The translations under genes and the position numbers were made by a program. A DNA stretch of 26,918 nt from a virus: positions 1 to 26,918 of the IMG/VR virus record IMGVR_UViG_3300030098_003625. One strand, 5' to 3'. This document shows positions 3,001-26,402 of the stretch, piece by piece (positions within the stretch are counted from its first letter, which is position 1; each line of letters begins with the position of its first letter). The notes beneath the pieces are model-generated. The model saw only the letters and a program-made list of their open reading frames with translations, did not search any database and was not told the origin of the DNA.

Positions 3001-3560
3001 GTGGAAAAAAAGCTGCTGGAGTTGGCGGAAAAGAAAAAACAAAAAGAAACCAAGCAAACATAACAAAAATATATCATTCTACAAATCAAGAGTTTGATGA
3101 ATTTGATATTAATAGAACAATGGATAATTCCATTTGGTTTACAGATGATCTTAATGCAATAAAAAGAGGAGAAGTTGGGGCAGCTGGTAGAGGTATTATT
3201 GTTGAAAGATTTATAGATGAAGATGAATTAAAATTAGCAACTGGTGCTGATAAAGATAAATATTTAGATGATGAATTAATACAACAAGGTTTTGATGGTA
3301 TTAAATTTTCAAAATCTGAGGGTTATTCAGAAAATAATTACAGAATTTTTTATCCAGAAAAATTAAAGAAAACTATAACTGATAGATCAGATTTATCTGA
3401 AAATCAAAATATCTTAAATGAATTTATAGACGAAGAATTTTCTATCTCTTCTAAAATAGAAGAAGATGAAATTGTGCCAGAAGTTGTGTCGGCAAGACAA
3501 ATACTAAACGATATAGAAAACGACCAGGCAATAATAAATAGATTGAGAGATTGTGTATGA
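1..3560 (+). CDS. Polyvalent phage protein (ParB-like + zeta kinase + ART-like), 5' partial
   Basis: The frame is open from base 3 with no stop, so the gene enters from the left; the TTG at 129 is internal. Visible in order: hydrophobic, Ala/Gly-rich helices (about 150-480); a ParB/DdrB-like segment around 950-1260 with VVADGHQRLGLAKRI and AAIKNIQEGSGTS; charged linkers; a zeta-toxin/kinase-like domain (about 2440-2900) with Walker A GKPGSGKSS, then DPDEGKKLFPEY and HEESS; and an ADP-ribosyltransferase-like domain (about 3055-3375) with YHSTNQEF, WFTDD and GFDGIKFS. This combination matches the 'polyvalent proteins' of phages and conjugative elements, thought to enter the cell with the DNA and act against host defences. 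Family assignment is from motif recognition. It overlaps the next gene by ATGA. A purely structural internal virion role is the alternative. Confidence 0.85.
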   Translation, partial: FKEVDKLKASDPEKYKDVKTRDQIDQEVLENARQAWETNQDVLRNAKTGFMGFNWGQLAGGLRAGITDPVILGTLPLGVVTGGWATTGTIGMQFLKTFAVEALIGFGAEAAIQKEVYRYNNDELGIKYTAKEAAAAMITVAVASGVLGDVVLGLFKGGKFTKAQYDEFKSFAQRKIDPAAWFGKELNKMIDAGDLNAEQIIFMSLQGLSRSNTVKFVNALPDDIKTKEVNAFLHKEEQKLNDIDENPFMDNLIDNLKHEEEIENAVKNLQNEVIPDEVDTNFQLNESVKTFSADKIEFKIDELETDANIFQYKQGGDEFGVTERLKGVTEWNPHAANIIVAFEFANGRKVVADGHQRLGLAKRIKAQNDGQDPKLYGYLYREVDGYTPEQIKIWAAIKNIQEGSGTSVDAAKILRLNKTEFENFKKAIPPRSVMVREAMAMESLSDDAFDLVARGQAESSHAALVAQLVNDKSLHLPILQLLGKVKPDNLGKARSIVLQALDSKFDTSEQLDLLGSEFITKSLVTNKADILDAAIKRLKQNKTLFKGLNQNKTKINSSGKNVLDEKYNQNQELINEKILQLIETKALRSGEQLAADLNDASVIHAKGNTRAAIEQFGDAIERANARGDFDGYDVGRSRDNAQHQNTNSKLIEEEDIDEIKTIPEQNFETPAGQGQIDQGNFLQDQLSEVLDIKPKTERGEFSVDEVLQNTSPIDRKIVYPILNKIDPEILEEALTAINKARAKSKLPPFKNLDDAIDQYEADQIALNKLETTESIINTPKRERLRFQIINQLQKHHGHTTAKDRLFKGQPKAEKKVVFVMGKPGSGKSSIEAVPLIKKLRAVLIDPDEGKKLFPEYDNGKGAGVIHEESSIVAAELTARTVEKGQNIVFPIVGADADSVLRKINAFKENGYKVYLHNVDIPGDESYRRAFVRYLKTGRLIDHGYLINVGNKPNDVYNHIKSLNILNGYKKTDNFVKRGEKPILIEKEGGISLGEKSSGSSGKKAAGVGGKEKTKRNQANITKIYHSTNQEFDEFDINRTMDNSIWFTDDLNAIKRGEVGAAGRGIIVERFIDEDELKLATGADKDKYLDDELIQQGFDGIKFSKSEGYSENNYRIFYPEKLKKTITDRSDLSENQNILNEFIDEEFSISSKIEEDEIVPEVVSARQILNDIENDQAIINRLRDCV

Positions 3561-6076
3561 GTTTAAGAGAATGTATTTTTAATGCCAATAAAGAGGGTAT
3601 TATTGATGATGTTAAGAAAGCAGAAATACAACAGCATTTTGATAGCTTTGAGGCAGATTTTATTGCTAAAGGAATGTCAAAAACTGATGCAGAAAAAGAG
3701 GCGGGTAAACTTACTTTTGATGCGTTAAAACATAATGCAGCAGAAAAGAAACGACAAAGTTTATTAACACTCCAGGCACAAGCTAAAATTTTAAAATGGA
3801 TTAAAGAGTTTCGTAATGTTGCTGGAGAATTAGATCCAGCGGAGGCTATGATTGCAGTATTAGCATCTAATCACCGAATGCCATTTACTGATGTTGAGGC
3901 TCGTTTTAAAACTGTGCGTGGGCAAATCTATCAACGCATGACTAATTATCTTCTTAAATTTAGACGTAATATGACAGGCGGCATAAGAAATGCAGATGAA
4001 ATGAAAGATGTTGTAAGAGAGATGTTTGATCCTGGCAGTACAAAAAATCCAATAGCCGCAGATCTTGCCGCAGCTGCAATGGATGCAATGGAATTTGCAA
4101 GATTAAAATTTAATGCAGCTGGTGGAAGAATTGCTAAATTAAAAAACTATGGAATGCCACAGCACCATGATTCTATAAGTATAACAAAATATGGCAAACA
4201 AGCGTGGATTGATAAAGTTAAGCCAATGCTTGATAGAGAATTAATGATTAATGAAAAAACTGGTTTAAAATTTGATGATGGATCTTTAGAAATTGCCCTG
4301 GGCGAAGTATGGGAAACAATTACAACTGAGGGTTTTAATAAACAAAGACCAGGCTCGGCTGCTGGTTTTGGTAAAAGTATTGCTAATAGAAGAATGGATC
4401 ATCGTTTTTTAAAATTTAAAGACGCTGATACCTGGATGGAGTATCAAGAAATGTTTGGTAAATCAGATCCATTTTCGACAGTTGTTGGACATTTAGATAG
4501 TATGGCAAGAGATATTGCATCAATGGAAATATTAGGAGCAAATCCAAATGCCACAATTAGATGGATGACACAGTTTCTTAGAAAGCAAGGAGCATTGGAT
4601 GATCAAAAAGGTTTAAAAAGAAAAAATCAATATCCTGGTAGAACAAATAAAGACAGGATGAATACAAAAATTAATTTATTAGAAAATATATGGAATCATC
4701 ATAATGGATCACTTAATGCTCCAGTTGAGGGATCAGTTGCAAGAACATTAGCGGGTACAAGACAAATACTTACATCTGCACAACTTGGATCTGCTGCTCT
4801 TTTATCTTTGGGTGATTTTAATTTTACAAGAATTGCTGCTAAATTTAATGGTATTCCAGCATCAAGAGCAATGTTTTCAAATTTAAAACAATTAGCAAAA
4901 GGTTATTATTCTGATGAATTGGCAGATTTAGCAATGTCCTCGGGTATTATTGGTGAAACTTTTTTAACAGTAGGAGCTGCACAAGCACGATTTATGGGTG
5001 AAGTATTTTCGCCAGAATTAGCAAAAAGAATTAATGAAACTGTATTAAGAGCAAGTCAATTATCACATATTACACAATCGGGTAAATTTGGTTTTGGTAT
5101 GGAATTTTTTAGAACATTATCACGATACTCCGATATTAAGTGGAATAAACTAGATAAAAATTTTAGAGCTTTTTTAGAACGACAAGGTTTTGGTGAAACA
5201 CATTGGGATATAATTAGAACAACACCTAAACATGAATACAAAGGAATTACTTTTATTCGCCCCGATGATATTTATTCTAATACAAATATAGAAGAAAATT
5301 TAGCAAAAGATATAGCATCACGATTAATGGATGGTATTAATAGAGAAATAGAATTTGCTGTACCATCTAGTTCTTATCGTGCCAAAGCATCAATTAAAGG
5401 AAATGCTAAACCAGGTACAGTTGGTGGTGAATTATTATTATCTGCCTCTATGTATAAAAATTTTACATTAACTTTAGCATTTACACATATTGCTAGATCT
5501 TTGTTTCAAGTAAAAGGATTACGAGGAAAAGCCTTTGCAATGGGAGGTTTAATTATATCAACAACATTAATAGGTGCTTTAACTTATGAATTAAAAAATT
5601 TAACTAAAGGTAAAGATATTACGCCAGAAGAAAATAGAGATATAAAATATTGGATGAATGCTATGATACATGGTGGCGGATTAGGTATATTTGGTGATTT
5701 CTTTTTTGCTGGTACAAATAGATTTGGTGGCGGTTATGCTCAAACAGCTGTGGGAGCTGTTGGATCATTCGTATCTGATGTATTAAAATTAGGTGTAGTA
5801 AATCCTATAAATTTAATACGAGGCGAAAAAGTTAATTATGGTAATGATATATCTAATTTTATTAAAAGATATACTCCTGGAGCATCGCTTTGGTATATTC
5901 GATTAGTATTGGAAAGATATATTTTTGATACTTTACAAGAAATGATAGATCCAGATTTTGACAAAAGAGTAAGAAGAAAGGAGAAGAGATCTCGCAAAAC
6001 CACAGGATTAGAATATTGGTGGGGAGCTGGTGAGAAAAAACCAGATAGATTGCCAAATATAAATCCAACAAAATAG
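3557..6076 (+). CDS. Putative internal virion / DNA-ejection protein (839 aa)
   Basis: I chose the ATG at 3557, whose ATGA overlaps the stop of the polyvalent gene, over a TTG two codons earlier. The protein is long and mostly charged and helical, with no enzymatic motif I recognise. An Ala-rich helical stretch lies around 4035-4130, followed by a conserved-looking block (GMPQHHDSISITKYGKQAW). Near the C-terminus are hydrophobic segments (about 5535-5600 and 5690-5790), then a basic tail (RVRRKEKRSRKTTG). Size, position between the polyvalent protein and the tail fibre, and the membrane-active C-terminus resemble podovirus internal core/ejection proteins. That role is inference; it could instead be another polyvalent-associated (LPD-type) protein. 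A promoter and terminator follow it directly. Confidence 0.75.
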   Translation: MSLRECIFNANKEGIIDDVKKAEIQQHFDSFEADFIAKGMSKTDAEKEAGKLTFDALKHNAAEKKRQSLLTLQAQAKILKWIKEFRNVAGELDPAEAMIAVLASNHRMPFTDVEARFKTVRGQIYQRMTNYLLKFRRNMTGGIRNADEMKDVVREMFDPGSTKNPIAADLAAAAMDAMEFARLKFNAAGGRIAKLKNYGMPQHHDSISITKYGKQAWIDKVKPMLDRELMINEKTGLKFDDGSLEIALGEVWETITTEGFNKQRPGSAAGFGKSIANRRMDHRFLKFKDADTWMEYQEMFGKSDPFSTVVGHLDSMARDIASMEILGANPNATIRWMTQFLRKQGALDDQKGLKRKNQYPGRTNKDRMNTKINLLENIWNHHNGSLNAPVEGSVARTLAGTRQILTSAQLGSAALLSLGDFNFTRIAAKFNGIPASRAMFSNLKQLAKGYYSDELADLAMSSGIIGETFLTVGAAQARFMGEVFSPELAKRINETVLRASQLSHITQSGKFGFGMEFFRTLSRYSDIKWNKLDKNFRAFLERQGFGETHWDIIRTTPKHEYKGITFIRPDDIYSNTNIEENLAKDIASRLMDGINREIEFAVPSSSYRAKASIKGNAKPGTVGGELLLSASMYKNFTLTLAFTHIARSLFQVKGLRGKAFAMGGLIISTTLIGALTYELKNLTKGKDITPEENRDIKYWMNAMIHGGGLGIFGDFFFAGTNRFGGGYAQTAVGAVGSFVSDVLKLGVVNPINLIRGEKVNYGNDISNFIKRYTPGASLWYIRLVLERYIFDTLQEMIDPDFDKRVRRKEKRSRKTTGLEYWWGAGEKKPDRLPNINPTK

Positions 6077-6086
6077 AATTTTTTAC

Positions 6087-6115
6087 TTAACAAACATAAC
6101 ATTTTTCTGTATGAT
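6087..6115 (+). promoter_or_regulatory. Sigma70-type promoter upstream of the tail fibre
   Basis: TTAACA (6087-6092) and TATGAT (6110-6115) are separated by exactly 17 bases; each hexamer differs from consensus at one position. Predicted transcription start is about 6121-6123. The sequence TATGATTCTTTATATG recurs almost unchanged at the second module (25751-25766). The start falls just before an intrinsic terminator hairpin, so productive transcription probably requires read-through. Confidence 0.7.
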
Positions 6116-6124
6116 TCTTTATAT

Positions 6125-6151
6125 GCTGGTTGGAATACCAGCTTTTTTTTT
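6125..6151 (+). terminator. Rho-independent terminator directly after the promoter
   Basis: Perfect 6-bp stem GCTGGT/ACCAGC (6125-6130 with 6137-6142), 6-base loop, then nine T (6143-6151). It would end transcripts from the upstream genes, but it also lies within about 30 bases of the start predicted for the promoter at 6087-6115. Stem, loop and T-tract lengths are identical to those at 25766-25792. Confidence 0.85.
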
Positions 6152-6174: not shown

Positions 6175-7698
6175 ATGACAATATCATCAACGACTACCAA
6201 GAATAGTTATTCTGGGAATGGATCAACTACTGCTTTTGCTTATAGTTTTTATATACCAGCATCAACAGATATACAGGTTATAGTAAGATCATCAACAGGT
6301 ACAGAAACTGTAAAAGCCGAGGGTACTGGATCTACAAATTACTCTATAACTGGAGTTGGATCTGCATCGGGTGGAAACATAACATTTGTCACCGCACCCG
6401 CATCTGGCGAAACAGTTGTATTACGAAGAAATACAGCTAAGACACAATCAACTGATTATGTTGCTAATGATCCTTTTCCAGCAGAAACACATGAAGATGC
6501 TCTTGATAAATTAACTATTATAGGTCAAGATTTACAAGAACAAATTGATCGTTCATTAAAACTATCAAGAACAAATACAATGACCTCAACAGAATTTACT
6601 GTTGGAGCAACTGATCGTGCATCAAAAATTTTAGCTTTTGATAGTTCTGGTGAATTATCTGTCACCCAGGAGTTAGGTACAGTTAAAGGCAACTGGGCTG
6701 CATCAACAGCTTATGTTGTAAGAGATATTGTTAAAGATACTTCTACTAATAATATTTTTATTTGTTTAACAGCTCATACTTCTTCTGGCTCACAGCCATT
6801 AACAACTAACACCGATAGTGCCAAATGGTCTTTACTGGTTGATGCTGCTAGTGCAACTACATCAGCAACTAATGCTGCATCGTCAGCCACAGCTGCGGCT
6901 AACTCCGCTACTGCTAGTGCTAATTCTGCAACAGCTGCTGCAAGTTCTGCATCCACAGCCTCTACCCAGGCAACTAACGCATCTAATTCTGCATCCGCAG
7001 CTGCTACTTCTGCAAGTAATGCTGCTACGAGTTATGACAATTTTGATGATAGATATTTAGGACAAAAAAGTTCTGATCCATCTGCTGATAATGATGGAGA
7101 TAGTTTATTAACTGGAGCATTATATTTTAATACATCAAACAATGTAATGATGGTTTACACAGGAAGTGCCTGGGTAAGAACAACACCAACATCTTCTAAT
7201 CAAACTAATATTAATACTGTTGCTGCTGATGCTACTGATATTGGTAATGTTAGTGGTAGTATTTCTAATGTTAATACTGTCGCTGGATCAATTTCAAATG
7301 TTAATACAACTGCTGGATCAATATCAAATGTTAATACAGTAGCTGGTGCAATAGCAAATGTTAATACAACTGCATCTAATATTACTGGAGTAAATAGTTT
7401 TGCTGATAGATATAGAGTAGCATCATCTGCTCCTGGTAGTAGTAATGATGAGGGTGATCTTTATTACGATACAACTGCTAACACTTTAAATTATTACAAT
7501 GGATCATCTTGGGCTTCAATAGTTGCCGATACAGATGTTAAAGTTCTTGTAAGTTCAAATGACTCAACTGCTGGTTTTTTGAATGGTAAATTAGTTGCTG
7601 GTACAGCAATTACTTTTACAGAAAATAACGATGGCAGTAATGAAACTTTAACTATTGCAGCGACAGATCCAACTGCCCTTGCAATAGCCCTCGGATAG
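6175..7698 (+). CDS. Tail fibre protein with T7-type N-terminal domain (507 aa)
   Basis: The first 140 residues (SYSGNGSTTAFAYSFYIPAS, FPAETHEDALDKLTIIGQDL) match the T7 gp17-like N-terminal domain that anchors fibres or tailspikes to podovirus tails. An Ala/Ser/Thr-rich coiled stalk follows (about 6840-7030), then two copies of a 'DRY...GxLYYxTxxNxxxYxGSxW' module (about 7035-7190 and 7400-7530) around a ten-residue tandem repeat. The leader has no clear Shine-Dalgarno, unlike the next gene. It is the first gene after the 6087-6151 promoter/terminator, so its expression depends on read-through. The role in host attachment is well supported by family; the receptor cannot be read from the sequence. 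Confidence 0.88.
   Translation: MTISSTTTKNSYSGNGSTTAFAYSFYIPASTDIQVIVRSSTGTETVKAEGTGSTNYSITGVGSASGGNITFVTAPASGETVVLRRNTAKTQSTDYVANDPFPAETHEDALDKLTIIGQDLQEQIDRSLKLSRTNTMTSTEFTVGATDRASKILAFDSSGELSVTQELGTVKGNWAASTAYVVRDIVKDTSTNNIFICLTAHTSSGSQPLTTNTDSAKWSLLVDAASATTSATNAASSATAAANSATASANSATAAASSASTASTQATNASNSASAAATSASNAATSYDNFDDRYLGQKSSDPSADNDGDSLLTGALYFNTSNNVMMVYTGSAWVRTTPTSSNQTNINTVAADATDIGNVSGSISNVNTVAGSISNVNTTAGSISNVNTVAGAIANVNTTASNITGVNSFADRYRVASSAPGSSNDEGDLYYDTTANTLNYYNGSSWASIVADTDVKVLVSSNDSTAGFLNGKLVAGTAITFTENNDGSNETLTIAATDPTALAIALG
7258..7407 (+). repeat. Five 30-bp tandem repeats in the tail fibre
   Basis: Five in-frame units encode versions of SISNVNTVAG, SISNVNTTAG, SISNVNTVAG, AIANVNTTAS and NITGVNSFAD. 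The first three are nearly identical at DNA level, suggesting recent unit duplication. Unit number is the kind of feature that changes fibre length between relatives. Confidence 0.8.
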
Positions 7699-15279: not shown

Positions 15280-15570
15280 TTGTCTTATGCTAAAATAGCC
15301 AAAGGAGTGCAATCGGAGTTTATTGCATCGGCTTGGTTATCAAAAAAAGATTATACAATTTATTGGAAAACACAGGATAATGATCCAATAGATATAGTCG
15401 CAGTACATAGAGTGACAGGAAAAGTTTTAAAGATAGATGTTAAAACAGCATCATATCGCAAGACCTGGAAACCAGGCACAATGATTAACAGGAAAGAAAG
15501 TAAGTACCAAAAACAATTAGGAGTGAAAATATTATATGTCTTTAAAGATGGAAGCTGCAAGTTTAAGTGA
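15280..15570 (+). CDS. PD-(D/E)XK nuclease-like protein (96 aa)
   Basis: Begins with TTG three bases after the previous stop; no in-frame ATG lies close by, and a GTG ten codons in is the alternative. The sequence follows the Holliday-junction-resolvase/small endonuclease pattern: 'GVQSEFIASAWLSKKDY' (Glu in helix 1), 'DPIDIVAVHR' (Asp), 'VLKIDVKTAS' (D/E-x-K), then a basic segment. Those acidic and lysine positions would bind metal and cut DNA. It sits inside the lysis cassette and overlaps the lysozyme start, an odd place for a nuclease. Resolution of DNA before packaging or host DNA breakdown are possible roles. Confidence 0.72.
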   Translation: MSYAKIAKGVQSEFIASAWLSKKDYTIYWKTQDNDPIDIVAVHRVTGKVLKIDVKTASYRKTWKPGTMINRKESKYQKQLGVKILYVFKDGSCKFK

Positions 15571-15970
15571 AGTAAAAGAAAGAATACGATCCCATGAGGG
15601 TTTTGAATTAGAGCCTTATGTAGATACATTAGGATTTCTAACCGGTGGAGTAGGTCATAAGATCTTACCATCCGAAGAAGTGCCTAAGACAGAAGAGGGC
15701 TGGTTAAAACTATATGACCAGGATTTTGAAAAAGCAGTAGCAGCTGCGGATGAAATTACTCCAGATGATATTCATCCAACAGCTTTTGGTATTATTGTTG
15801 AAATGATTTTTCAGTTGGGAAAACAAGGCTGTATGAATTTTAAAAAAATGCATAAAGCCCTGGCTGAGAAAAATCACATCGAGGCAAGTGTGCAAATGCT
15901 CGACTCGAAGTGGAGAAAACAAACAAAAGCGAGATGTGAAAATCTCGCAGAATTAATGAGGAGTATATGA
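15536..15970 (+). CDS. T4-type lysozyme / endolysin (144 aa)
   Basis: The segment from HEGFELEPYVDTLGF to TGGVGHK carries the T4 lysozyme (GH24) catalytic triad: Glu21, Asp30 and Thr36, with the same spacing as E11-D20-T26 of T4. It cleaves the glycan strands of peptidoglycan. There is no signal peptide or signal anchor, so release through a holin pore is expected. 'GIIVEMIFQLGKQGCMNFKK' matches the downstream helical region of the family. Length is close to the usual 145-165 residues. The start at 15536 lies inside the nuclease gene; a second ATG at 15548 is possible. It overlaps the next gene by ATGA. Confidence 0.92.
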   Translation: MSLKMEAASLSEVKERIRSHEGFELEPYVDTLGFLTGGVGHKILPSEEVPKTEEGWLKLYDQDFEKAVAAADEITPDDIHPTAFGIIVEMIFQLGKQGCMNFKKMHKALAEKNHIEASVQMLDSKWRKQTKARCENLAELMRSI

Positions 15971-16484: not shown

Positions 16485-16517
16485 AAAAAAGCCTCATATT
16501 TGACCATACAAGGCTTT
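16483..16517 (-). terminator. Possible leftward terminator behind the late operon
   Basis: Inverted repeat AAAGCCT/AGGCTTT (16488-16494 with 16511-16517) with a 16-base loop. The eight A at 16483-16490 give a T-tract only when read leftward. It would back up the stronger terminator at 16607-16636. Read rightward it has just three T, so it is a poor end for the late operon. The long loop lowers confidence. Confidence 0.45.
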
Positions 16518-16553
16518 GTAGCAAGTGGGCTGTATGATTAGACCTGGTAAAAT

Positions 16554-16694
16554 ATGCCTAAAAAACAGAAAAAAGAAGAATTAAACGAGCAGCAGCTGCA
16601 AGAGATAAAAAAAATTGCCGCTGTAATTAGCGGCAACTTTACAATTGGAAACGATAAAACTATCCGGAGTATTAAGAGGAAAAAGCCTCGTTAA
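16554..16694 (+). CDS. Possible 46-aa basic protein
   Basis: An ATG ORF encodes a lysine-rich helical product (MPKKQKKEELNEQQLQEIKK, ending RKKPR). Its 3' end overlaps the integrase stop by 23 bases, and it contains the palindrome of the leftward terminator, coding for IAAVISGN. There is no clear ribosome site, though a GACCTGG lies just upstream. Its composition looks protein-like, but terminator overlap and lack of a ribosome site make it doubtful. Confidence 0.3.
   Translation: MPKKQKKEELNEQQLQEIKKIAAVISGNFTIGNDKTIRSIKRKKPR
16607..16636 (-). terminator. Rho-independent terminator of the integrase operon
   Basis: Read leftward: perfect 8-bp stem TTGCCGCT/AGCGGCAA (16629-16636 with 16615-16622), 6-base loop, then eight T (complement of A at 16607-16614). 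It lies 36 bases past the integrase stop and would prevent leftward transcription from running into the lysis genes. Confidence 0.85.
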
Positions 16695-17898
16695 TATCTT
16701 TTCTATCTCTTTTAATATCTTCCCAGGTAGTATTATAAAGATCTGTCATTTTCTGATCTTCATGCCCCATCTGATTTCTTAATCTATCTCCATCATGTCC
16801 AGCGTCTTTTCTTCTACTGTTATTATGTCGTCTATATTGATGGACACTTAATGTTGATGGATCAATACCAAATTTCTTAGCTGGTAATTTTATATTTCTA
16901 TTTAAAACATTTGATGCATTTCTATAATTACCATTCATTGTAGGAAACAATAACCCTTTTGGATTTGGTATCTCTTTATTGTTTAAATAAGCCAACCATT
17001 CTTGTAAGCCCTGGATCAATCGATCTGTTAAAGCTACAATTCTCTCCGACTTATCTGTTTTTGTTAATTCAATATTACCTGTCTTAGCACAATAAACTTG
17101 ATTAACTTCTGCAAATCCTTTTTTTAAATGTACATCTTTAACAAGCATTCCATATATTTCATTGGATCTTTTGCCAGTATGAGCAGAATACAAATTAATA
17201 ATGTAATTAAATTTTGAAGTAAAATCTTTTCTAGGACAACTGTTAGATCCTACATTTTTAACTTGTTCTAAATGATCTAAATATTTATCAACCATTTGTT
17301 TTGTTGGTGCTTTTTTCTTAATAACCCTGGTCTTTGATTGATGATTAGTTCTATCAACCATCTCACAAGGATTAATTTTTAACCCCATATTCTCAACAAT
17401 AGCCAACTTACAAGCAGCTACAAACTTAGCCCAACACTTAGTATTAAAATTTTTATTAAGATCCCTGGCAAAAACTTTTGATACTTCGTTAGCAATTGGT
17501 GGAGTAATTTCACTACATTTATAATCTGATAATTTTTTATCAAATACTTTTATATTGTGATTTGAATTACCTCCTATAATTTTTAATTGCTCACAATACT
17601 CGTTATATGTTCTCTCCCTTAACCCAGTATTTGGATCTTTTTGATGCAGCTCCCACTTAGATAAATAAATTTTTTTAAGACCATCCAGGGCAAATTTAAA
17701 TGGTTTATCTTCAACAATATAATTGCCATCATCAATAGTTCTTTCCAAATCTTTTTTTAATTGTTTTGCTTTGGCAGTTGCCTCAGTTTCAGAAAGTTTA
17801 CCAATGCTTACTTGTTTTTTTAATCTTTTATTTGTTATTGGGCATCGGTAAAAAAACATAACAAACTTACCGCAGCCAGTTGTGAATATATCACCCAT
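16672..17898 (-). CDS. int: Tyrosine site-specific integrase (408 aa)
   Basis: Catalytic residues are visible: Arg244 (HTGKRSNEI), a lysine in the beta-turn region (TKTDKSERI, Lys280/283), His353 and Arg356 (VHQYRR), His379 (MGHEDQKM) and nucleophile Tyr388 (TDLYNTT). The N-terminal 60-180 residues read as an arm-binding plus core-binding region. It would recombine the tRNA-Asp-derived attP at 20201-20239 with the host chromosome. It is the last gene of the leftward operon from 20.05 kb, about 2.3 kb from attP, whereas lambda-type integrases lie next to theirs. Ribosome site GGAGG is 11 bases ahead, and the start overlaps the preceding stop as TAATG. A terminator follows. Confidence 0.95.
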   Translation of the reverse strand: MGDIFTTGCGKFVMFFYRCPITNKRLKKQVSIGKLSETEATAKAKQLKKDLERTIDDGNYIVEDKPFKFALDGLKKIYLSKWELHQKDPNTGLRERTYNEYCEQLKIIGGNSNHNIKVFDKKLSDYKCSEITPPIANEVSKVFARDLNKNFNTKCWAKFVAACKLAIVENMGLKINPCEMVDRTNHQSKTRVIKKKAPTKQMVDKYLDHLEQVKNVGSNSCPRKDFTSKFNYIINLYSAHTGKRSNEIYGMLVKDVHLKKGFAEVNQVYCAKTGNIELTKTDKSERIVALTDRLIQGLQEWLAYLNNKEIPNPKGLLFPTMNGNYRNASNVLNRNIKLPAKKFGIDPSTLSVHQYRRHNNSRRKDAGHDGDRLRNQMGHEDQKMTDLYNTTWEDIKRDRKDINEAFSS

Positions 17899-18074
17899 TA
17901 TCTATGATTCCTCCAGCCAAATTGTCTTGGATTTTTTATTAAATAATTAAAAGCAAAACTATATGCCTCACGCATTTTTTTGCTGTAATGAAAATTTTTA
18001 AAAAACAAAAAAATTAAAAATTTATAATGATAAATTATAATTCCTTTGTAATGATCTAAATAATATTCAATCAT
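17898..18074 (-). CDS. 58-aa aromatic, basic small protein upstream of int
   Basis: An ORF too short for usual cut-offs fits exactly between the GNAT gene and int, with TAATG overlaps at both ends and a perfect ribosome site (AAGGAGG) seven bases before its ATG. The product (MIEYYLDHYKGIIIYHYKFL...) is rich in Tyr/Phe/Ile with a hydrophobic stretch that could be a membrane helix, then 'SKKMREAYSFAFNYLIKNPR'. Its place before int suggests excisionase by analogy, but it does not resemble the usual small winged-helix Xis proteins. The HTH protein at 21111 is the better Xis candidate. Confidence 0.7.
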   Translation of the reverse strand: MIEYYLDHYKGIIIYHYKFLIFLFFKNFHYSKKMREAYSFAFNYLIKNPRQFGWRNHR

Positions 18075-18808
18075 TAATTAACCTCCTTTTCCCATCGAAA
18101 TCTTCTTGCTGGAGATGATTTTGCATACATCGCAGCTGCATTTTTCGATGTCCATTTTCTAGGATATTTTTGTTTGTGTACTACTTTAAAACCAGCAGCT
18201 TTATAATAACTGCCATTTTCATCCTCCCTGGTAAAAGTAATTAGTTTTTTATATCCCATTTTTTTAGCTCTTTTACTAATTGAGCTAACTAACATTGATG
18301 GAATTGGAGAGGCATGATCTTTATTAAATCTCATCAATTCTACATCAAACTCATTAGCATCCTTTTCATCAAGGAATGCAATTCTTGTAATTTCTAAAGT
18401 ATCTCCATCATCCAGGCATCTAGCAACTGGTCTGCCAACTACCGCAACACCATTTAAAATTTTACCAGGTTTTGGCTCAACGACTAAATATTCACATTCA
18501 TATTCCAGGACATAAATATCTTTTTCTAAATGATAATATAAACCATTTATTCCCTCAAAAGTATCTTCGATAAATCCATCATCAAATAAATCTTCTCCCT
18601 GGCATTCGTAAAAATCTTTTATTGCAAAATGTGCAGCTGGATTAACATCTTCATTGTTATTAAAATCTTCTTCTGTATTTCTAAAAACTCCCAGGGTAAA
18701 TTTATGCCCCTGGGGTTTAATATTATGTTTATGAAATTTATCGATTATCTGTTGTGCAACAGTAAAATTATAATCTGAAATTTCTATATTATTTTTATTG
18801 GTTAGCAT
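18074..18808 (-). CDS. GNAT-fold acetyltransferase-like protein, XF1762 type (244 aa)
   Basis: The core 'LNGVAVVGRPVARCLDDGDT' and 'LEITRIAFLD', then 'SSISKRAKKMGYKKLITFTR' with 'EDENGSYYKAAGFKVVHKQK', matches the phage XF1762 family of GNAT-like proteins; the helix around 'KRAKKMGYKKL' is the acyl-CoA-binding part of the fold. Relatives have been compared with the DNA-modifying Mom protein, so base modification against restriction is a possible role, not shown here. An acidic insertion (about residues 48-100) before the core makes it longer than typical members. It is transcribed with int from the repressor-controlled promoter at 20.05 kb. Confidence 0.75.
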   Translation of the reverse strand: MLTNKNNIEISDYNFTVAQQIIDKFHKHNIKPQGHKFTLGVFRNTEEDFNNNEDVNPAAHFAIKDFYECQGEDLFDDGFIEDTFEGINGLYYHLEKDIYVLEYECEYLVVEPKPGKILNGVAVVGRPVARCLDDGDTLEITRIAFLDEKDANEFDVELMRFNKDHASPIPSMLVSSISKRAKKMGYKKLITFTREDENGSYYKAAGFKVVHKQKYPRKWTSKNAAAMYAKSSPARRFRWEKEVN

Positions 18809-22138: not shown

Positions 22139-22335
22139 GATTTATCCGCCCAGGTTGCTTGTTTAATGTGATTCCAAATATTTCTATGTGCAATAGGACT
22201 TAACCCTATTTGTTTTCTTCTAGCTGCACATTCTTTTTGTACTGCCTCTTCACGATCCATATTTTTCCAATCGTGAGCAGTACAAATTATTTTTTTCTTA
22301 GAAATAAAATTTATTACTTCTGCTGTTTTACTCAT
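22126..22335 (-). CDS. Hypothetical protein (69 aa)
   Basis: I take the ATG at 22335 (MSKTAEVINFISKKKIICTA), which has GGAGGA four bases ahead and overlaps the exonuclease stop as ATGA; a start four codons earlier lacks both. The product is basic, with 'AHDWKNMDREEAVQKECAAR' and 'HIKQATWADKSWQK'. The pattern of Trp, Asp and His residues recalls small phage proteins of unassigned function. No domain is recognised. It sits inside the exonuclease/annealing module. Confidence 0.65.
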   Translation of the reverse strand: MSKTAEVINFISKKKIICTAHDWKNMDREEAVQKECAARRKQIGLSPIAHRNIWNHIKQATWADKSWQK

Positions 22336-23237
22336 ATGCTCCTCCATAGTTGCTTACATCTTGCGACATACTCATCGCCAAAATCCCAAAATGGATCATC
22401 AAATTCTGGATCTATTTTGGATAAAATATCTGTTAATGAATTGCTTGAAGAAACTATATTTTGCCTAATAATATTTTTTCTAATAAAAGTTTCCCAAGCC
22501 CAATCAATTGCATCTTTGTTTAATGCATCGTGGCTTTCATCAAATATAACAAAACCCTTTTCTTCTTTTTTTGTTTTTGGATTTATGCCAGGTACAACAT
22601 CATTAACATAAACAATAAAAATTTTTTTGTTTGTTGCTTTTTTATAAAAAGCTGTTTGTTTGACATGAGATTCCTGGGGCTTATCTGGTAAAGATCCTTT
22701 TGCAGAACTATACCCACCTTTTTTTAATTCTTTTGGTTTTCCTCGTTGTTTTGTTTTAAATTCAACAACTATGTCTTTGCTTTCATAATCAATAAAACCT
22801 GTCATGGGTAATTCTACTCCAGGCATTTTTGCCCAGCATGAGTTTTCAGATTTTATTTTTTGTTTTTTATAATTAGGGAATATTTCTGAAAGAGCTGTTA
22901 TGCCATTTAGCACCATTTGATGCATACCCTCGGCAATTTTTTCAAAATGTATTAATTGTTCTTCGTTAAATTTTTCTTTATGTAAATTTAATTGAAACTC
23001 TCCCTCTCTTGCAGCAACATCATTATCTAATTTATCAACGATAGCTGCATCGCATCCATCCTGGACTGCATTACCAGCAACCATAATAGGTTTAACTTTA
23101 AATTGTTTTCGTTCTTCCTGTGTGCAGCATAAATATTTTCCAGCCCAAATGCCATTCGGTAAATTCGATTGTGCGGGTGAAGTGTGATAAAGATCATACT
23201 TTAACCAATGCTGCGGAATATTATCAATTTCTTCCAT
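22332..23237 (-). CDS. PD-(D/E)XK exonuclease, RecB/Cas4-like (301 aa)
   Basis: The motif order fits a RecB-family nuclease: an early helix with 'MVAGNAVQDGCDAA' in the position of the usual G-x-x-x-H helix, 'MTGFIDYESKDIVVEFKTK' supplying the D and E-x-K metal ligands, and 'HVKQTAFYKKA' as the Q-x3-Y motif. It would resect DNA ends for the annealing protein downstream. I prefer the ATG at 23237 because AAGGA lies five bases before it; the ATG at 23243 is embedded in a hairpin. It is the first gene of the leftward recombination operon behind repressor-type operators. Confidence 0.82.
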   Translation of the reverse strand: MEEIDNIPQHWLKYDLYHTSPAQSNLPNGIWAGKYLCCTQEERKQFKVKPIMVAGNAVQDGCDAAIVDKLDNDVAAREGEFQLNLHKEKFNEEQLIHFEKIAEGMHQMVLNGITALSEIFPNYKKQKIKSENSCWAKMPGVELPMTGFIDYESKDIVVEFKTKQRGKPKELKKGGYSSAKGSLPDKPQESHVKQTAFYKKATNKKIFIVYVNDVVPGINPKTKKEEKGFVIFDESHDALNKDAIDWAWETFIRKNIIRQNIVSSSNSLTDILSKIDPEFDDPFWDFGDEYVARCKQLWRSI

Positions 23238-23239
23238 AA

Positions 23240-23306
23240 CCATCCTTTTTGGATGGTATTAGCATTATTTGCAAATTAAAACAAATAAATTAGCAAAAAA
23301 TGTTAA
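23240..23306 (-). promoter_or_regulatory. Operator/leader region of the recombination operon
   Basis: Two repressor-type sites, TTAGCATTATTTGCAAA (23259-23275) and TTAGCAAAAAATGTTAA (23290-23306), lie upstream of the exonuclease gene; the second reaches into the 3' end of cI. A perfect hairpin CCATCC-N5-GGATGG (23240-23256) covers the first possible start codon and part of the ribosome site of the second. No promoter hexamers stand out clearly, but the operator pair probably brackets one. Confidence 0.6.
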
Positions 23307-23932
23307 TATGGCTTAATTTCTAATGCTTTTAAGTTGATACTACCTTGAAGAACACAGCACCAATCAACTTCAATATAGAGTGTTGATGTACTGTCCATTA
23401 ATTGAAATGGATGTTTTTTAGTTTTAGTATTTGGATGTCCTAACCAACCTACCATTAACTCTTTGTTATTTTTACGTTGAATTATTCCAATATTTCCATA
23501 ACACCTTTCATCTTTCTTTTTAATTTTTTGAAAATAACTATCAAAAATTTGTACTAATCCATCCTCGAAAGGAAAATGAAAACTAGAGTCTGGATCTTGA
23601 CTACCTCTATAAACTATACCATACCAACCTGGTCTAACACTTGGTAAATCAACATGAAGTCTATCAAATTGAAAAAGCTCGACAGAATTATTTGAAAAAT
23701 ATTGACCAGATAATTCTAAAGGTTGTGGTGGATATAATAAAGATTGAGCTGATGTTATTTCTAATTCTGGTATATTTGCAATTTTTTCTGCAAGTGGCAT
23801 TGTAAGACTTGCATTATTTTTTAAAACTTTGTTTAAATGTATTTTATTTATTTTAAGTTTATTAGCTAACACTTCTTGTGTCATACCAATTTCTAACATT
23901 TTTTCTCTTAGTTTTTCCATCTCTATAACCAT
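23303..23932 (-). CDS. CI-like repressor with S24-like C-terminal domain lacking obvious catalytic residues (209 aa)
   Basis: Residues 5-50 (LREKMLEIGMTQEVLANKLK; INKIHLNKVLKNNASLTMPL) form an HTH of the lambda-repressor type. The C-terminus (RPGWYGIVYRGSQDPDSSFH; GNIGIIQRKNNKELMVGWLG; TLYIEVDWCCVLQGSI) resembles the dimerising LexA/S24 fold, but I see neither a Ser-Met catalytic pair nor an Ala-Gly cleavage site. It may therefore not respond to RecA by self-cleavage. It is divergent from the Cro-like gene across operators of the form TTWGCA-N5-TGCWAA, which also occur at two other promoters. A second in-frame ATG is at 23920. Confidence 0.8.
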   Translation of the reverse strand: MVIEMEKLREKMLEIGMTQEVLANKLKINKIHLNKVLKNNASLTMPLAEKIANIPELEITSAQSLLYPPQPLELSGQYFSNNSVELFQFDRLHVDLPSVRPGWYGIVYRGSQDPDSSFHFPFEDGLVQIFDSYFQKIKKKDERCYGNIGIIQRKNNKELMVGWLGHPNTKTKKHPFQLMDSTSTLYIEVDWCCVLQGSINLKALEIKPY

Positions 23933-24019: not shown

Positions 24020-24235
24020 ATGAATATGACCTTAGAGGAATACAGAACAAAATATCAGCTTTCATTTACACAATTGGCAAGGCAAGTTGGGCTGCAAGAC
24101 CTTAAAAACCCAACGCAAGAAATAAAAAGATATTGTCAAGGCAGCACAATTCCAAGAGCTGATCGCATGATAAAAATCCGAGATAATACAAATGGAGAAG
24201 TGACAGCTAATGATTTCCTCAACTCATCTCGGTAA
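24020..24235 (+). CDS. Cro-like HTH protein (71 aa)
   Basis: The sequence MNMTLEEYRTKYQLSFTQLA and 'RQVGLQDLKNPTQEIKRYCQ', ending 'NGEVTANDFLNSSR', has a Cro/CI-type HTH followed by the V-T-x-N-D-F tail typical of phage Cro-like proteins. It is divergent from cI, first gene of the rightward early operon, and small like Cro. The start (24020; alternative 24026) has no ribosome site, and the -10 box is only five bases ahead, implying a leaderless mRNA. It should compete with the repressor for the shared operators. Confidence 0.8.
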   Translation: MNMTLEEYRTKYQLSFTQLARQVGLQDLKNPTQEIKRYCQGSTIPRADRMIKIRDNTNGEVTANDFLNSSR

Positions 24236-24491
24236 TTTAGTCGTAATTCGTTGGATTGACGCAAAAGAAATTGATTATGGATGGCATTCAATTGAAACAA
24301 TAAAAGAAGTTAATTGCCCAGCAATTTTAAGTGTTGGCTGGGTTGCACAAATTACAGATAATGAAATAAAATTATCTGCGGATATACCAACAGATAAGGA
24401 AGATGATGAGGCGGGAAGATCCCAAGCTATTCCCATTGGTTGTGTAAAAAATATTCAAATATTGGAGGGCTGGGATTGTTGGAACAAATAA
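24210..24491 (+). CDS. Conserved-type hypothetical protein (93 aa)
   Basis: Starts inside cro (26-base overlap). The product has 'LVVIRWIDAKEIDYGWHSIE', 'CPAILSVGWVAQITDNEIKL' and 'RSQAIPIGCVKNIQIL', a pattern I recognise from small proteins of marine and alphaproteobacterial phages with no known role: an antiparallel beta domain with 'W-x-DA' and 'SVGW' motifs. It is encoded second in the early rightward operon, the position of cII in lambda, but shows no HTH. No function is assigned. Confidence 0.72.
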   Translation: MISSTHLGNLVVIRWIDAKEIDYGWHSIETIKEVNCPAILSVGWVAQITDNEIKLSADIPTDKEDDEAGRSQAIPIGCVKNIQILEGWDCWNK

Positions 24492-24682
24492 AACCTAGCT
24501 TGGATCATGTTATTCCAAGTTATAAAAAAAGACAGCTGCCCCAGGGCAATCATTCGGATGAAGTTTATAGAACAGCTGCACGATTAAAAAAAATATGCAT
24601 GGAGAATTTATATACCTGGAAAACAATGGATGAGGACATTTTGGAAGAGGCTGCAAAGATGGTGAATAATGCCCCTCGTTGA
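24476..24682 (+). CDS. Hypothetical early protein (68 aa)
   Basis: I take the TTG at 24476 because GGAGGG ends six bases before it; an upstream TTG at 24440 lacks a ribosome site. The product (LEQIKPSLDHVIPSYKKRQL; HSDEVYRTAARLKKICMENL; YTWKTMDEDILEEAAKMVNN) is helical and charged with no recognised domain. It overlaps both neighbours by 14-16 bases in the early rightward operon, just before the replication-type winged-helix gene, so a role as a replication accessory is possible. Confidence 0.55.
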   Translation: MLEQIKPSLDHVIPSYKKRQLPQGNHSDEVYRTAARLKKICMENLYTWKTMDEDILEEAAKMVNNAPR

Positions 24683-25076
24683 TAAATGGAAATTAAATTT
24701 ATTTGCCCAGGCTGATCCCAGGTTATCAGCTGTTGCTAGAAGAGTATTATTTTTATTATGTAATTATCACAATGACAAGACCAGACAATGCAATCCATCA
24801 CAGCTGCGGATGTCCAGGGATTTAGGAACTACCGATAGATCTATACGCAATGGATTAAAAGATTTAGTGCTGCATGGGTACATCAAAATTATTAAAAAAG
24901 GCAACGTAGGGTTTTCCACAATGTACGCTATTGATTTTAAACTAGCGGAAAAATTCTTCCAAGCTACTGGAAAAAACTTTCCAAAAGACCAGGAAGATAT
25001 TTTCCTACGAACTAATTTAAGAACTTATTTAGAAGAAGAGGAAATACAAATTTTAAAAGGGGGGAAAAGTGGATAA
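24669..25076 (+). CDS. Winged-helix replication initiator-like protein (135 aa)
   Basis: The segment 'LSAVARRVLFLLCNYHNDKT', 'CNPSQLRMSRDLGTTDRSIR' and 'NGLKDLVLHGYIKIIKKGNV' is the winged-helix pattern of the N-terminal DNA-binding domain of lambda O-like/phage replisome-organiser proteins (first helix, 'PS' helix, recognition helix, wing). The product is shorter than full O-like proteins and lacks an obvious helicase-loader domain. Located in the early rightward operon where replication genes normally sit. It could also be a transcription factor. It ends on an overlap with a GTG-start gene. Confidence 0.68.
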   Translation: MPLVDKWKLNLFAQADPRLSAVARRVLFLLCNYHNDKTRQCNPSQLRMSRDLGTTDRSIRNGLKDLVLHGYIKIIKKGNVGFSTMYAIDFKLAEKFFQATGKNFPKDQEDIFLRTNLRTYLEEEEIQILKGGKSG

Positions 25077-25311
25077 GTCTTACCTGGATAGAATGATAAA
25101 AAATATCGCAAAGAATAGTAATGCAAATTATCAAGCTGTTAAACAAGGAGCTTATGCAGCTAAAGGTACAGATGATTGGATTATAGGAAATATGAAAAAG
25201 AAATTATCAAGCGATACGTTTCTCAGTTGGTTTAGAGTGATGGTCGAGGGTAATTATAAACAAAAAGCAAAGGCAAGAAAATATGCAAAACATCTCCTTG
25301 GCATCGACTAA
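25069..25311 (+). CDS. Small protein with possible DnaA-N-like pattern (80 aa)
   Basis: A GTG start follows a GGGGGG-type ribosome site and overlaps the previous gene by eight bases. The C-terminal half 'TDDWIIGNMKKKLSSDTFLS' continuing 'WFRVMVEGNY' recalls the first helices of the DnaA N-terminal domain (W...L...LS...F..WF), a module that contacts helicase. The resemblance is short and may be chance. Next to the winged-helix gene, a replication-adapter role would fit, but it is a guess. Confidence 0.6.
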   Translation: MDKSYLDRMIKNIAKNSNANYQAVKQGAYAAKGTDDWIIGNMKKKLSSDTFLSWFRVMVEGNYKQKAKARKYAKHLLGID

Positions 25312-25762
25312 AAAGAGAAGAAAATATCGTGATAAGGTTGATTTTACTGACCTTATTAGATTATTTGATGATGCAGCGGAAACAGATAGATTAATGCCAA
25401 GTATTATTCGTAAGCAAAAGATGAGTAGTTGGGTTGATTATCCAGACGAAATAACAGCTTATGGATATACCAGGATGAAAGATTTAGTGAGAATTGTACC
25501 AGATCAAATACAAATAGATCGCTGGGAGATTGCCACAAAAATGTTGATGGAAATAGAAGATGCAAACATGAGAAAAGTTATATGGGCTAAAGCTAAAGGA
25601 GCAACTTGGGTTTGGTTGGGTAAGAAAACAAAATTATCCAGGCAATGGATTAGACAAAAATACCTGGAGGCTCTCATTGTGTTAGCATTTAGAATAAATA
25701 AAACTGTAAAGAAAAATATCAATAAACTTTACATTATTAACAAAATAACTTATGATTCTTAA
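25283..25762 (+). CDS. DUF6362-like HTH protein in the position of a Q antiterminator (159 aa)
   Basis: The middle 'WVDYPDEITAYGYTRMKDLV' and 'RIVPDQIQIDRWEIATKMLM', then 'VIWAKAKGATWVWLGKKTKL' with 'SRQWIRQKYLEALIVLAF', matches the DUF6362 pattern: a helical domain and a sigma-region-4-like HTH (W-x3-K-x-LSRQWIRQKY). RinA, ArpU and some Q-type late regulators share such an architecture. It is the last gene of the early rightward operon, and the late promoter/terminator module begins inside its 3' end. Late-gene control is inference; some HTH proteins of this family have no tested function. Its start overlaps the previous gene by 29 bases. Confidence 0.72.
   Translation: MQNISLASTKKRRKYRDKVDFTDLIRLFDDAAETDRLMPSIIRKQKMSSWVDYPDEITAYGYTRMKDLVRIVPDQIQIDRWEIATKMLMEIEDANMRKVIWAKAKGATWVWLGKKTKLSRQWIRQKYLEALIVLAFRINKTVKKNINKLYIINKITYDS
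25728..25756 (+). promoter_or_regulatory. Late promoter before the terminase genes
   Basis: TTTACA (25728-25733) and TATGAT (25751-25756) are 17 bases apart, each one mismatch from consensus. The promoter lies in the last codons of the DUF6362-like gene; its -10 box encodes part of the C-terminus. Bases 25751-25766 (TATGATTCTTAATATG) match the 6110-6125 module with one difference. A TTAACAAA-ATAAC-like element also occurs in both. Confidence 0.7.
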
Positions 25763-25765
25763 TAT

Positions 25766-25792
25766 GATGGATTTACTTCCATCTTTTTTTTT
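25766..25792 (+). terminator. Rho-independent terminator directly after the late promoter
   Basis: Perfect 6-bp stem GATGGA/TCCATC (25766-25771 with 25778-25783), 6-base loop, nine T (25784-25792). Identical geometry to 6125-6151 but with a different stem sequence, so the structure rather than the bases is kept. It would end the early rightward operon and also stop transcripts from the promoter at 25728. Confidence 0.82.
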
Positions 25793-25798
25793 GTCTAA

Positions 25799-26077
25799 AT
25801 GGTAGGCAGACCATCTAAGAAAATTATATGCGGAGCTAGACGCAAATATGATGGCAATCCTTGCCAAGCAAAAGCTCTTAAAAGTGGTCGCTGCAAATAT
25901 CATGGCGGGATGAGTACAGGTGCTAAAACTATTGAGGGCAAAAGAAAATCATACGCAAATTTAAGACAGTATAAAAACAATGCCAAAAGACTTGAAGAAT
26001 TACTTGGACAAGATCCTGGAAGAGATACAGCTGGGGAACACATTAACCTCAATAACAAAGCAAAAGGGTTATCCTAG
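25799..26077 (+). CDS. HGGxSTG-type zinc-binding protein (92 aa)
   Basis: The sequence CGARRKYDGNPCQAKALKSG followed by 'RCKYHGGMSTGAKTIEGKRK' is the HGGxSTG motif protein commonly found just upstream of phage terminase genes. Cys/Cys/Cys/His residues (Cys11, Cys22, Cys32, His35) can bind zinc. The remainder is basic and helical. Its function is unknown, but conserved placement suggests a packaging or late-regulation role. The leader has no ribosome site (GTCTAA before the ATG). It overlaps the small terminase by about 98 bases. Confidence 0.75.
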   Translation: MVGRPSKKIICGARRKYDGNPCQAKALKSGRCKYHGGMSTGAKTIEGKRKSYANLRQYKNNAKRLEELLGQDPGRDTAGEHINLNNKAKGLS

Positions 26078-26402
26078 TTTATCTGCTGTTTACAAATGGA
26101 TGCGAGAGGATGCAGAAGTTGCTGAGAAAATTATGGCTGCTAGAGCTGTTGGAGCTGCAACACATTTAGATCATTGCTTTGATTTATTATCGCAAGATAT
26201 TAAACCACAAGATGTGCAATGGAATAGAGAAAGATTGCATCACTATCGCTGGGCTGCCTCGAAACTCATTGGAGTTTATGGCGATAAGAGTAAGATTGAA
26301 CAAGATAGCAATATCACTTACAAGTTTGTTTGGGATGATGGATCTAACAAGATAGAAGATCAAACTAATGGCAAGGAGTTGGCTTTTAATAACGCAAAGT
26401 GA
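25980..26402 (+). CDS. Terminase small subunit (140 aa)
   Basis: The pattern 'YLDKILEEIQLGNTLTSITK' with 'GYPSLSAVYKWMREDAEVAE' and 'KIMAARAVGAATHLDHCFDL', then 'RLHHYRWAASKLIGVYGDKS', fits phage small-terminase proteins: an N-terminal HTH ('Psls-vY-W'), a helical centre, and a YG-D/K motif. It recognises packaging DNA and recruits the large subunit encoded a few hundred bases on. The long overlap with the previous gene (98 bases) carries its first 33 codons. A 244-base non-coding stretch separates it from the next gene. Confidence 0.82.
   Translation: MPKDLKNYLDKILEEIQLGNTLTSITKQKGYPSLSAVYKWMREDAEVAEKIMAARAVGAATHLDHCFDLLSQDIKPQDVQWNRERLHHYRWAASKLIGVYGDKSKIEQDSNITYKFVWDDGSNKIEDQTNGKELAFNNAK

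Follow-up and report, generated by a model that had tools for sequence, protein, structure and literature searches.

The last early gene of a marine temperate podovirus-like phage encodes a DUF6362 protein that is likely to be the phage's Q-type late-gene antiterminator, acting at two promoter-terminator modules, A and B (Table 1). The window, i.e., the whole 26.9-kb stretch of DNA analysed here, is a fragment of that phage. Our computations show the anatomy of the modules, their conservation, the register of their elements, their recurrence at other loci and the gene order around them; the fold of the protein is a model prediction, and binding, pausing and read-through are inferred.

The gene order is lambda-like, running repressor, Cro-like gene, O-like gene, DUF6362, module A and terminase small subunit (TerS), the last lying near the beginning of the late operon that follows module A. 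Two criteria of a Q-type system are fulfilled: the regulator gene closes the early operon and immediately precedes the late one, and an intrinsic terminator stands between the promoter and the late genes. Between module A and TerS lies a gene for a 92-aa protein (25799-26077, +) with a conserved CGARRKYDGNPCQAKAL..GRCKYHGG motif; this protein is also kept in group I and in loci L036-L039, and its function is unknown.

Table 1 Coordinates of the features discussed in the text (positions in the window; roles of the pause and binding elements are inferred)
Feature	Position	Strand	Details
Virion protein, epsilon15/phiV10 type	3551-6076		phrog_684
Module B -35, TTAACA	6087..6092	+	17 nt before TATGAT
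Module B candidate binding element	6087..6100	+	TTAAC 6087-6091, ATAAC 6096-6100; 9-bp direct repeat; no binding data
Module B -10, TATGAT	6110..6115	+	followed by tcttta
Module B -10-like hexamer, TATGCT	6122..6127	+	12 nt past -10
Module B intrinsic terminator	6125..6151	+	hairpin GCTGGT-tggaat-ACCAGC 6125-6142, T9 6143-6151
Tail fibre gene	6175..7698	+	first behind module B; phrog_1640 etc.
Endolysin	15536..15970	+	end of late block behind module B; phrog_7, 9e-16
Integrase	16672-17898		phrog_1
Repressor-like gene	23303..23932	-	divergent from early operon; phrog_3, transcriptional repressor
Rightward early operon	24020..25762	+	Cro-like HTH (24020), small genes, O-like protein, DUF6362 last
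O-like replication protein	24669-25076		in rightward early operon
DUF6362 gene, candidate Q-type antiterminator	25283..25762	+	159 aa; PF19889, phrog_6836
27-nt block AATAAACTTTACATTATTAACAAAATA	25721..25747	+	codons 147-155; holds -35 and candidate binding element of module A
Module A -35, TTTACA	25728..25733	+	17 nt before TATGAT
Module A candidate binding element	25728..25741	+	TTTAC 25728-25732, TTAAC 25737-25741; 9-bp direct repeat; function inferred
Module A -10, TATGAT	25751..25756	+	
DUF6362 stop codon, TAA	25760-25762		within tctTAA between the two module A hexamers
Module A -10-like hexamer, TATGAT	25763..25768	+	candidate sigma-dependent pause element, initially transcribed region
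Module A intrinsic terminator	25766..25792	+	hairpin GATGGA-TTTACT-TCCATC 25766-25783, T9 25784-25792
Terminase small subunit (TerS), Sf6 type	25980..26402	+	PF20901, 4.6e-19; phrog_1482

Modules A and B share one layout: a -35 element, 17 nt, a -10 element, exactly 6 nt, a -10-like hexamer, a hairpin and a T9 tract. Module A lies in and just past the 3' end of the DUF6362 gene, and the putative pause element, the 5' half of the terminator stem and (in module A) the stop codon of the gene are crowded into, or beside, one stretch of a few bases. The hairpin begins ca. 3 nt past the predicted transcription start. The 30-nt RNAs predicted for the two modules have folding energies of -8.3 (A, z -5.3) and -9.8 kcal/mol (B, z -3.2), and no shuffle folded as well. 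We infer, from sequence alone, that transcripts from either promoter should stop at ~30 nt unless something intervenes. Promoters were scored with E. coli sigma70 weights, the host being unknown.

Both modules have their two hexamers in the same register, the second beginning exactly 12 nt past the first. Among all spacings from 7 to 18, 12 is the best for either module, and few shuffles scored as good at the -10-like hexamer (3/1000 for A, 1/1000 for B). The pR' promoter of lambda (TAAATT tgactc AACGAT) has the same 12-nt register, and its hexamer pair is not significant by the same -10 score (268/1000 shuffles), so our argument rests on the register and not on the score. A composite template (-35, 16-18 nt, -10, 6 nt, -10-like hexamer, hairpin with T-tract) found exactly two sites in the window, the two modules, vs. 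0.1 per shuffle; in the window and related records together it found 16 vs. about 1 in shuffles, and the number of sites peaked at spacing 12. For Q to load, the promoter needs a binding element, and a -10-like, sigma-dependent pause site in the initially transcribed region is required as well (PMC6606751). By analogy with lambda and 21 we infer that the second hexamer of modules A and B is such a pause site; a late promoter with a -10-like element in its initially transcribed region, a further criterion of a Q-type system, is present, with the pausing itself inferred.

As for the binding element, a repeat of [AT]TNAC at about -35 and -26 stands in the same register in both modules. The sequence-only reading that preceded this analysis had placed the start of a promoter-terminator module inside the 3' end of the DUF6362 gene, in the position of lambda Q and its pR'-tR' site, and both statements held, the former by the sequence from 25728 onward and the latter by the lambda-like gene order and the 12-nt register. 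Its second copy of the module also held, with the position corrected to 6.09-6.15 kb (6087-6151) instead of 5.7 kb. The TTAACAAA boxes that it took for shared elements failed as elements of common register: they lie 6 nt from the -10 in module A and 15 nt in module B, and a box 9 nt further from the -10 in one module was ruled out as a fixed binding site, unlike the -35/-26 repeat, which fits both. The -10/-10-like anatomy common to A and B was absent from its description.

Selection on the DNA itself is evident at module A. Codons 147-155 of DUF6362 (AATAAACTTTACATTATTAACAAAATA, i.e., the -35/spacer) are free of synonymous differences in 11 group I sequences, as compared with 0.19-0.52 in 10-codon blocks of codons 11-140 of the same sequences, and we consider that the DNA, and not only the protein, is constrained there. 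All group I records that cover the junction of the virion-protein and tail-fibre genes carry module B (the window, G002, G003, G004, G005 and G011), and the candidate binding element of this module is kept in the five records besides the window. In G003/G004 a T-A pair of the module B hairpin has become A-T with pairing retained, and a degenerate hexamer (TACAAA or TATTAA) takes the place of the first -10.

It could be argued that A and B are ordinary boundary terminators accompanied by fortuitous -10 matches, or that each promoter makes a tiny RNA with a role of its own, given that the DNA of the window is AT-rich and promoter-like matches in it are common. We regard this as very unlikely, as composite sites number only 0.1 per shuffled window, the -35/spacer is frozen at synonymous sites, and promoter blocks stay fixed while the letters of the hairpins vary with pairing kept.

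Similar modules recur beside other DUF6362 genes. Viral loci were collected in two overlapping scans (26 and 54), to which distant plasmid and phage members were added, and in other lineages (marine phages, a gut phage, an Agarilytica plasmid and Shinella) different sequences with the same layout lie past the DUF6362 stop codon. Group II has TTGACG-18-TATGAA-6-TAGAAT with a hairpin just upstream of terS; the gut phage MT837927 has TTTACA-17-TACAAA-6-TATAAT followed by a GGGCGGA...TCCGCCC hairpin and T5; the Agarilytica plasmid has GGGACA-17-TATAGT-6-TATCCT, then CCGCAG...CTGCGG and T7; and in Shinella CGGACA-17-TAGGTT-6-TATCCT is found downstream of DUF6362. In group III a strictly conserved promoter block abuts hairpins whose letters vary between members with pairing kept. 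A terminator falls within the first 260 nt in 21 of 37 loci, vs. 7.3 expected, and in 10 vs. 1.0 under a stricter terminator rule. Testing of next-gene proteins showed that an Sf6-type TerS follows DUF6362 in six other loci checked.

A second module is present in group V too (G014, minus strand, 6481; G015, minus strand, 13050; loci L113 and L115). It reads TTCACA-17-TATAAG-6-TATAGT, lies in a late intergenic gap, shows compensatory changes in its hairpin and is unrelated in sequence to the module B of group I. It was detected with the template; sequence searches for further copies in groups II-V gave single copies only.

Neither the adjacency nor the register is universal, and both were rejected as general rules. 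Five loci (L047, L061, L071, L083 and L119) lack an adjacent module, the tandem hexamers of group III are 9 nt apart, and the spacing after DUF6362 in groups IV and V is also not 12. In four loci (L047, L061, L071 and L083) DUF6362 has other downstream neighbours. In L036-L039, nested inverted repeats (GAAAGAT ... ATCTTTC around two inner hairpins) lie 3' of DUF6362 and stand in for the simple promoter-terminator. The group II leader carries, between promoter and terminator, an invariant ACCTTAC box of unknown role, usually after CCTCCCTTAACTT (L055, L056, L058, L063, L066, L068, L070, L076 and L082).

This recurrence bears on the possibility that A and B are indeed Q-type targets of an antiterminator that is another early product, e.g., the 80-aa protein encoded at 25069-25311. 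The small early genes of the window matched no PHROG family, which leaves room for such a candidate. However, the module follows DUF6362 even where the neighbours differ (gut phage, plasmid copies, group II), and we hold this explanation to be very improbable.

The assignment of the protein to DUF6362 is safe despite a PF19889 score close to the cut-off (31.2 bits, E 3e-7, cut-off 31), because its homologs score 41-127 bits against the same model, which matched 30/30 aligned members. Its PHROG match, phrog_6836, is annotated as of unknown function. None of the 30 members matched PF06530 (the Q21 family) at E <= 1, nor did any match PF03589 (LambdaQ) or PF06323 (Q82) at that threshold, and a search of PDB sequences with a DUF6362 profile gave no match. 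Pfam Sigma70_r4_2 and PHROG sigma-factor models weakly match one distant member. No relative of the window protein in isolated phages was found by tblastn; distant DUF6362 members are located in Rhodobacter phages, a gut phage record and plasmids. Two peptide-pattern scans of genome contigs confirmed no bacterial relatives, the patterns probably being too strict. In the Rhodobacter phages RcKemmy, RcOceanus, RcKai and RcSwan (L122-L126) the DUF6362 proteins are annotated only as HTH, the gene is the last before the right genome end, and an ACGCTA...TAGCGT inverted repeat with a T8 run lies near the junction of the genome ends.

The window protein and a group II member were each modelled with AlphaFold2 (pLDDT 54 and 79, respectively), and both models were compared with the PDB. 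The fold of phage 21 Q joins two N-terminal helices to a sigma-R4-like half of four helices. The window model aligned with it over 101-110 residues (Z 7.4-7.9), the longer alignments of 108-110 residues giving Z 7.5-7.9 and the match spanning residues 17-150, and the group II model over 100-107 of its 132 residues (Z 6.5-7.7), at best with 6p18_Q (107/132 residues, Z 7.7, rmsd 5.1). These matches take in the N-terminal helices, while most of the other leading hits are sigma region 4 and cover the C-terminal half only. All these values are below 8, which the comparison tool's own note calls middling, and a plain Foldseek search with the better model returned no significant match, hence the predicted fold supports the case without deciding it. 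On these models DUF6362 would consist of a sigma-region-4-like DNA-binding half, for which there are no binding data, and an N-terminal two-helix half. The best conserved stretch among marine members, (R)KQKMS.W, is on the second helix; the second helix of 21Q sits in the RNA exit channel (PMC6606751), and we infer that the two are equivalent.

A less remote alternative than those above is that DUF6362 is an activator or sigma-like factor in the style of RinA or ArpU, which recruits polymerase to the two weak promoters, and that the hairpins only end upstream transcription. In its favour, the sigma-region-4 fold is the clearest structural match and some of the -10 elements are poor (TACAAA, TATTAA). 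Yet in both modules the hairpin comes after the predicted start, so that an activated promoter would still meet the terminator, the -10-like hexamer that follows at a spacing of exactly 12 nt is left unexplained, and the 21Q match extends into the N-terminal helices. We therefore consider an activator unlikely and retain the antiterminator as the preferred reading.

Three sequence families of lambdoid Q proteins are recognized (PF06530, PF03589 and PF06323; PMC7171158). Nearest to the system described here is phage 21 Q (PF06530; PDB 6JNY, 6P18-6P1C), with which the predicted helices of DUF6362 align, at the middling Z values given above, over nearly the whole protein with a sigma-R4-like half, and whose pR'-tR' likewise places the late operon behind a promoter and terminator with a candidate direct-repeat site and a -10-like pause element. 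It differs in that no DUF6362 sequence matches PF06530, and in that the DUF6362 hairpin starts from about +3, overlapping the -10-like element, with two target modules. Lambda Q (PF03589) at pR'-tR' has the gene order and the 12-nt register in common with DUF6362, but there is no sequence-family match and tR' ends about 190 nt downstream. AlpA of Pseudomonas aeruginosa is one antiterminator serving two promoters, each with a close intrinsic terminator, at 54 nt and 26 nt from the start (PMC7969949); however, AlpA has a predicted winged-helix motif, and in the DUF6362 modules the hairpin follows the start almost at once. GafZ of the Caulobacter GTA is a sigma-like HTH antiterminator at a late cluster, from an alphaproteobacterium, with a putative binding element between -10 and -35 (PMC11150451), but its terminator is far downstream, behind the first gene.

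The literature searched makes no mention of DUF6362 or PF19889, and no paper assigning an antiterminator role was found. Since there is in addition no match to the three Q families, we infer that DUF6362 is probably a further family of phage Q-type proteins, the fourth, whose promoter-terminator is unusually compact, although the kind of system is itself known. A bolder version, in which this fourth family is widespread, the terminator hairpin starts from about +3, loading has to be accomplished within one pause while the first hairpin is still open, and a single protein switches on two late blocks that lie apart, may equally well prove right or wrong.

The sequence-only reading had proposed that the last early gene encodes an HTH protein with a sigma-region-4-like end, and the DUF6362 assignment held, the sigma-region-4-like end being supported by the predicted fold. 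Its suggested survey for modules beside DUF6362 genes, which it had also named as a way to refute the proposal, was applied to the loci collected here and found modules in far-diverged loci, in support of the proposal, but several loci are without. Its central proposal, antitermination through both hairpins by DUF6362 or another early product, is well supported for DUF6362, though by inference only, from the pause register, the DNA-level constraint, the recurrence, the 21Q-like predicted fold, the gene order and the second target.

We postulate that, without DUF6362, the host RNA polymerase would start at A and B, transcribe the hairpin sequence (about +3 to +21) and release an RNA of ~30 nt at the T9 tract. 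The -10-like hexamer would retain sigma and make the polymerase pause between about +16 and +18, with the hairpin still being completed, and DUF6362, sitting on the -35/-26 repeat, would load onto the paused enzyme. Once loaded it would probably form a sleeve in the RNA exit channel, as 21Q does, narrowing or shielding the exit path, and the modified polymerase would ignore the module terminator and later ones, expressing terminase/packaging and head genes from module A and the genes from tail fibre to endolysin from module B. The module B terminator may also shield the tail and lysis genes from unmodified polymerase arriving from upstream.

If correct, this reading would assign a function to DUF6362 and phrog_6836, a regulator that many marine phages share with Rhodobacter phages and with prophage-like regions of plasmids, and would explain how late genes are switched on in phages that carry DUF6362. 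With start and terminator almost touching, the modules would put the ability of Q-like proteins to overcome hairpins to an extreme test, as loading must precede the first possible termination event. Moreover, the module template is searchable and makes the late promoters of uncultured phages findable.

Other features of the window were seen in passing. The leftward early block contains a gene (22332-23243, -) matching phrog_1706, annotated as CRISPR/Cas-system associated, and a Mom-like DNA modification protein is encoded at 18074-18808 (-; phrog_1384). Two strong terminator-like hairpins lie at 16488-16640 (-), between the converging late and integrase blocks.
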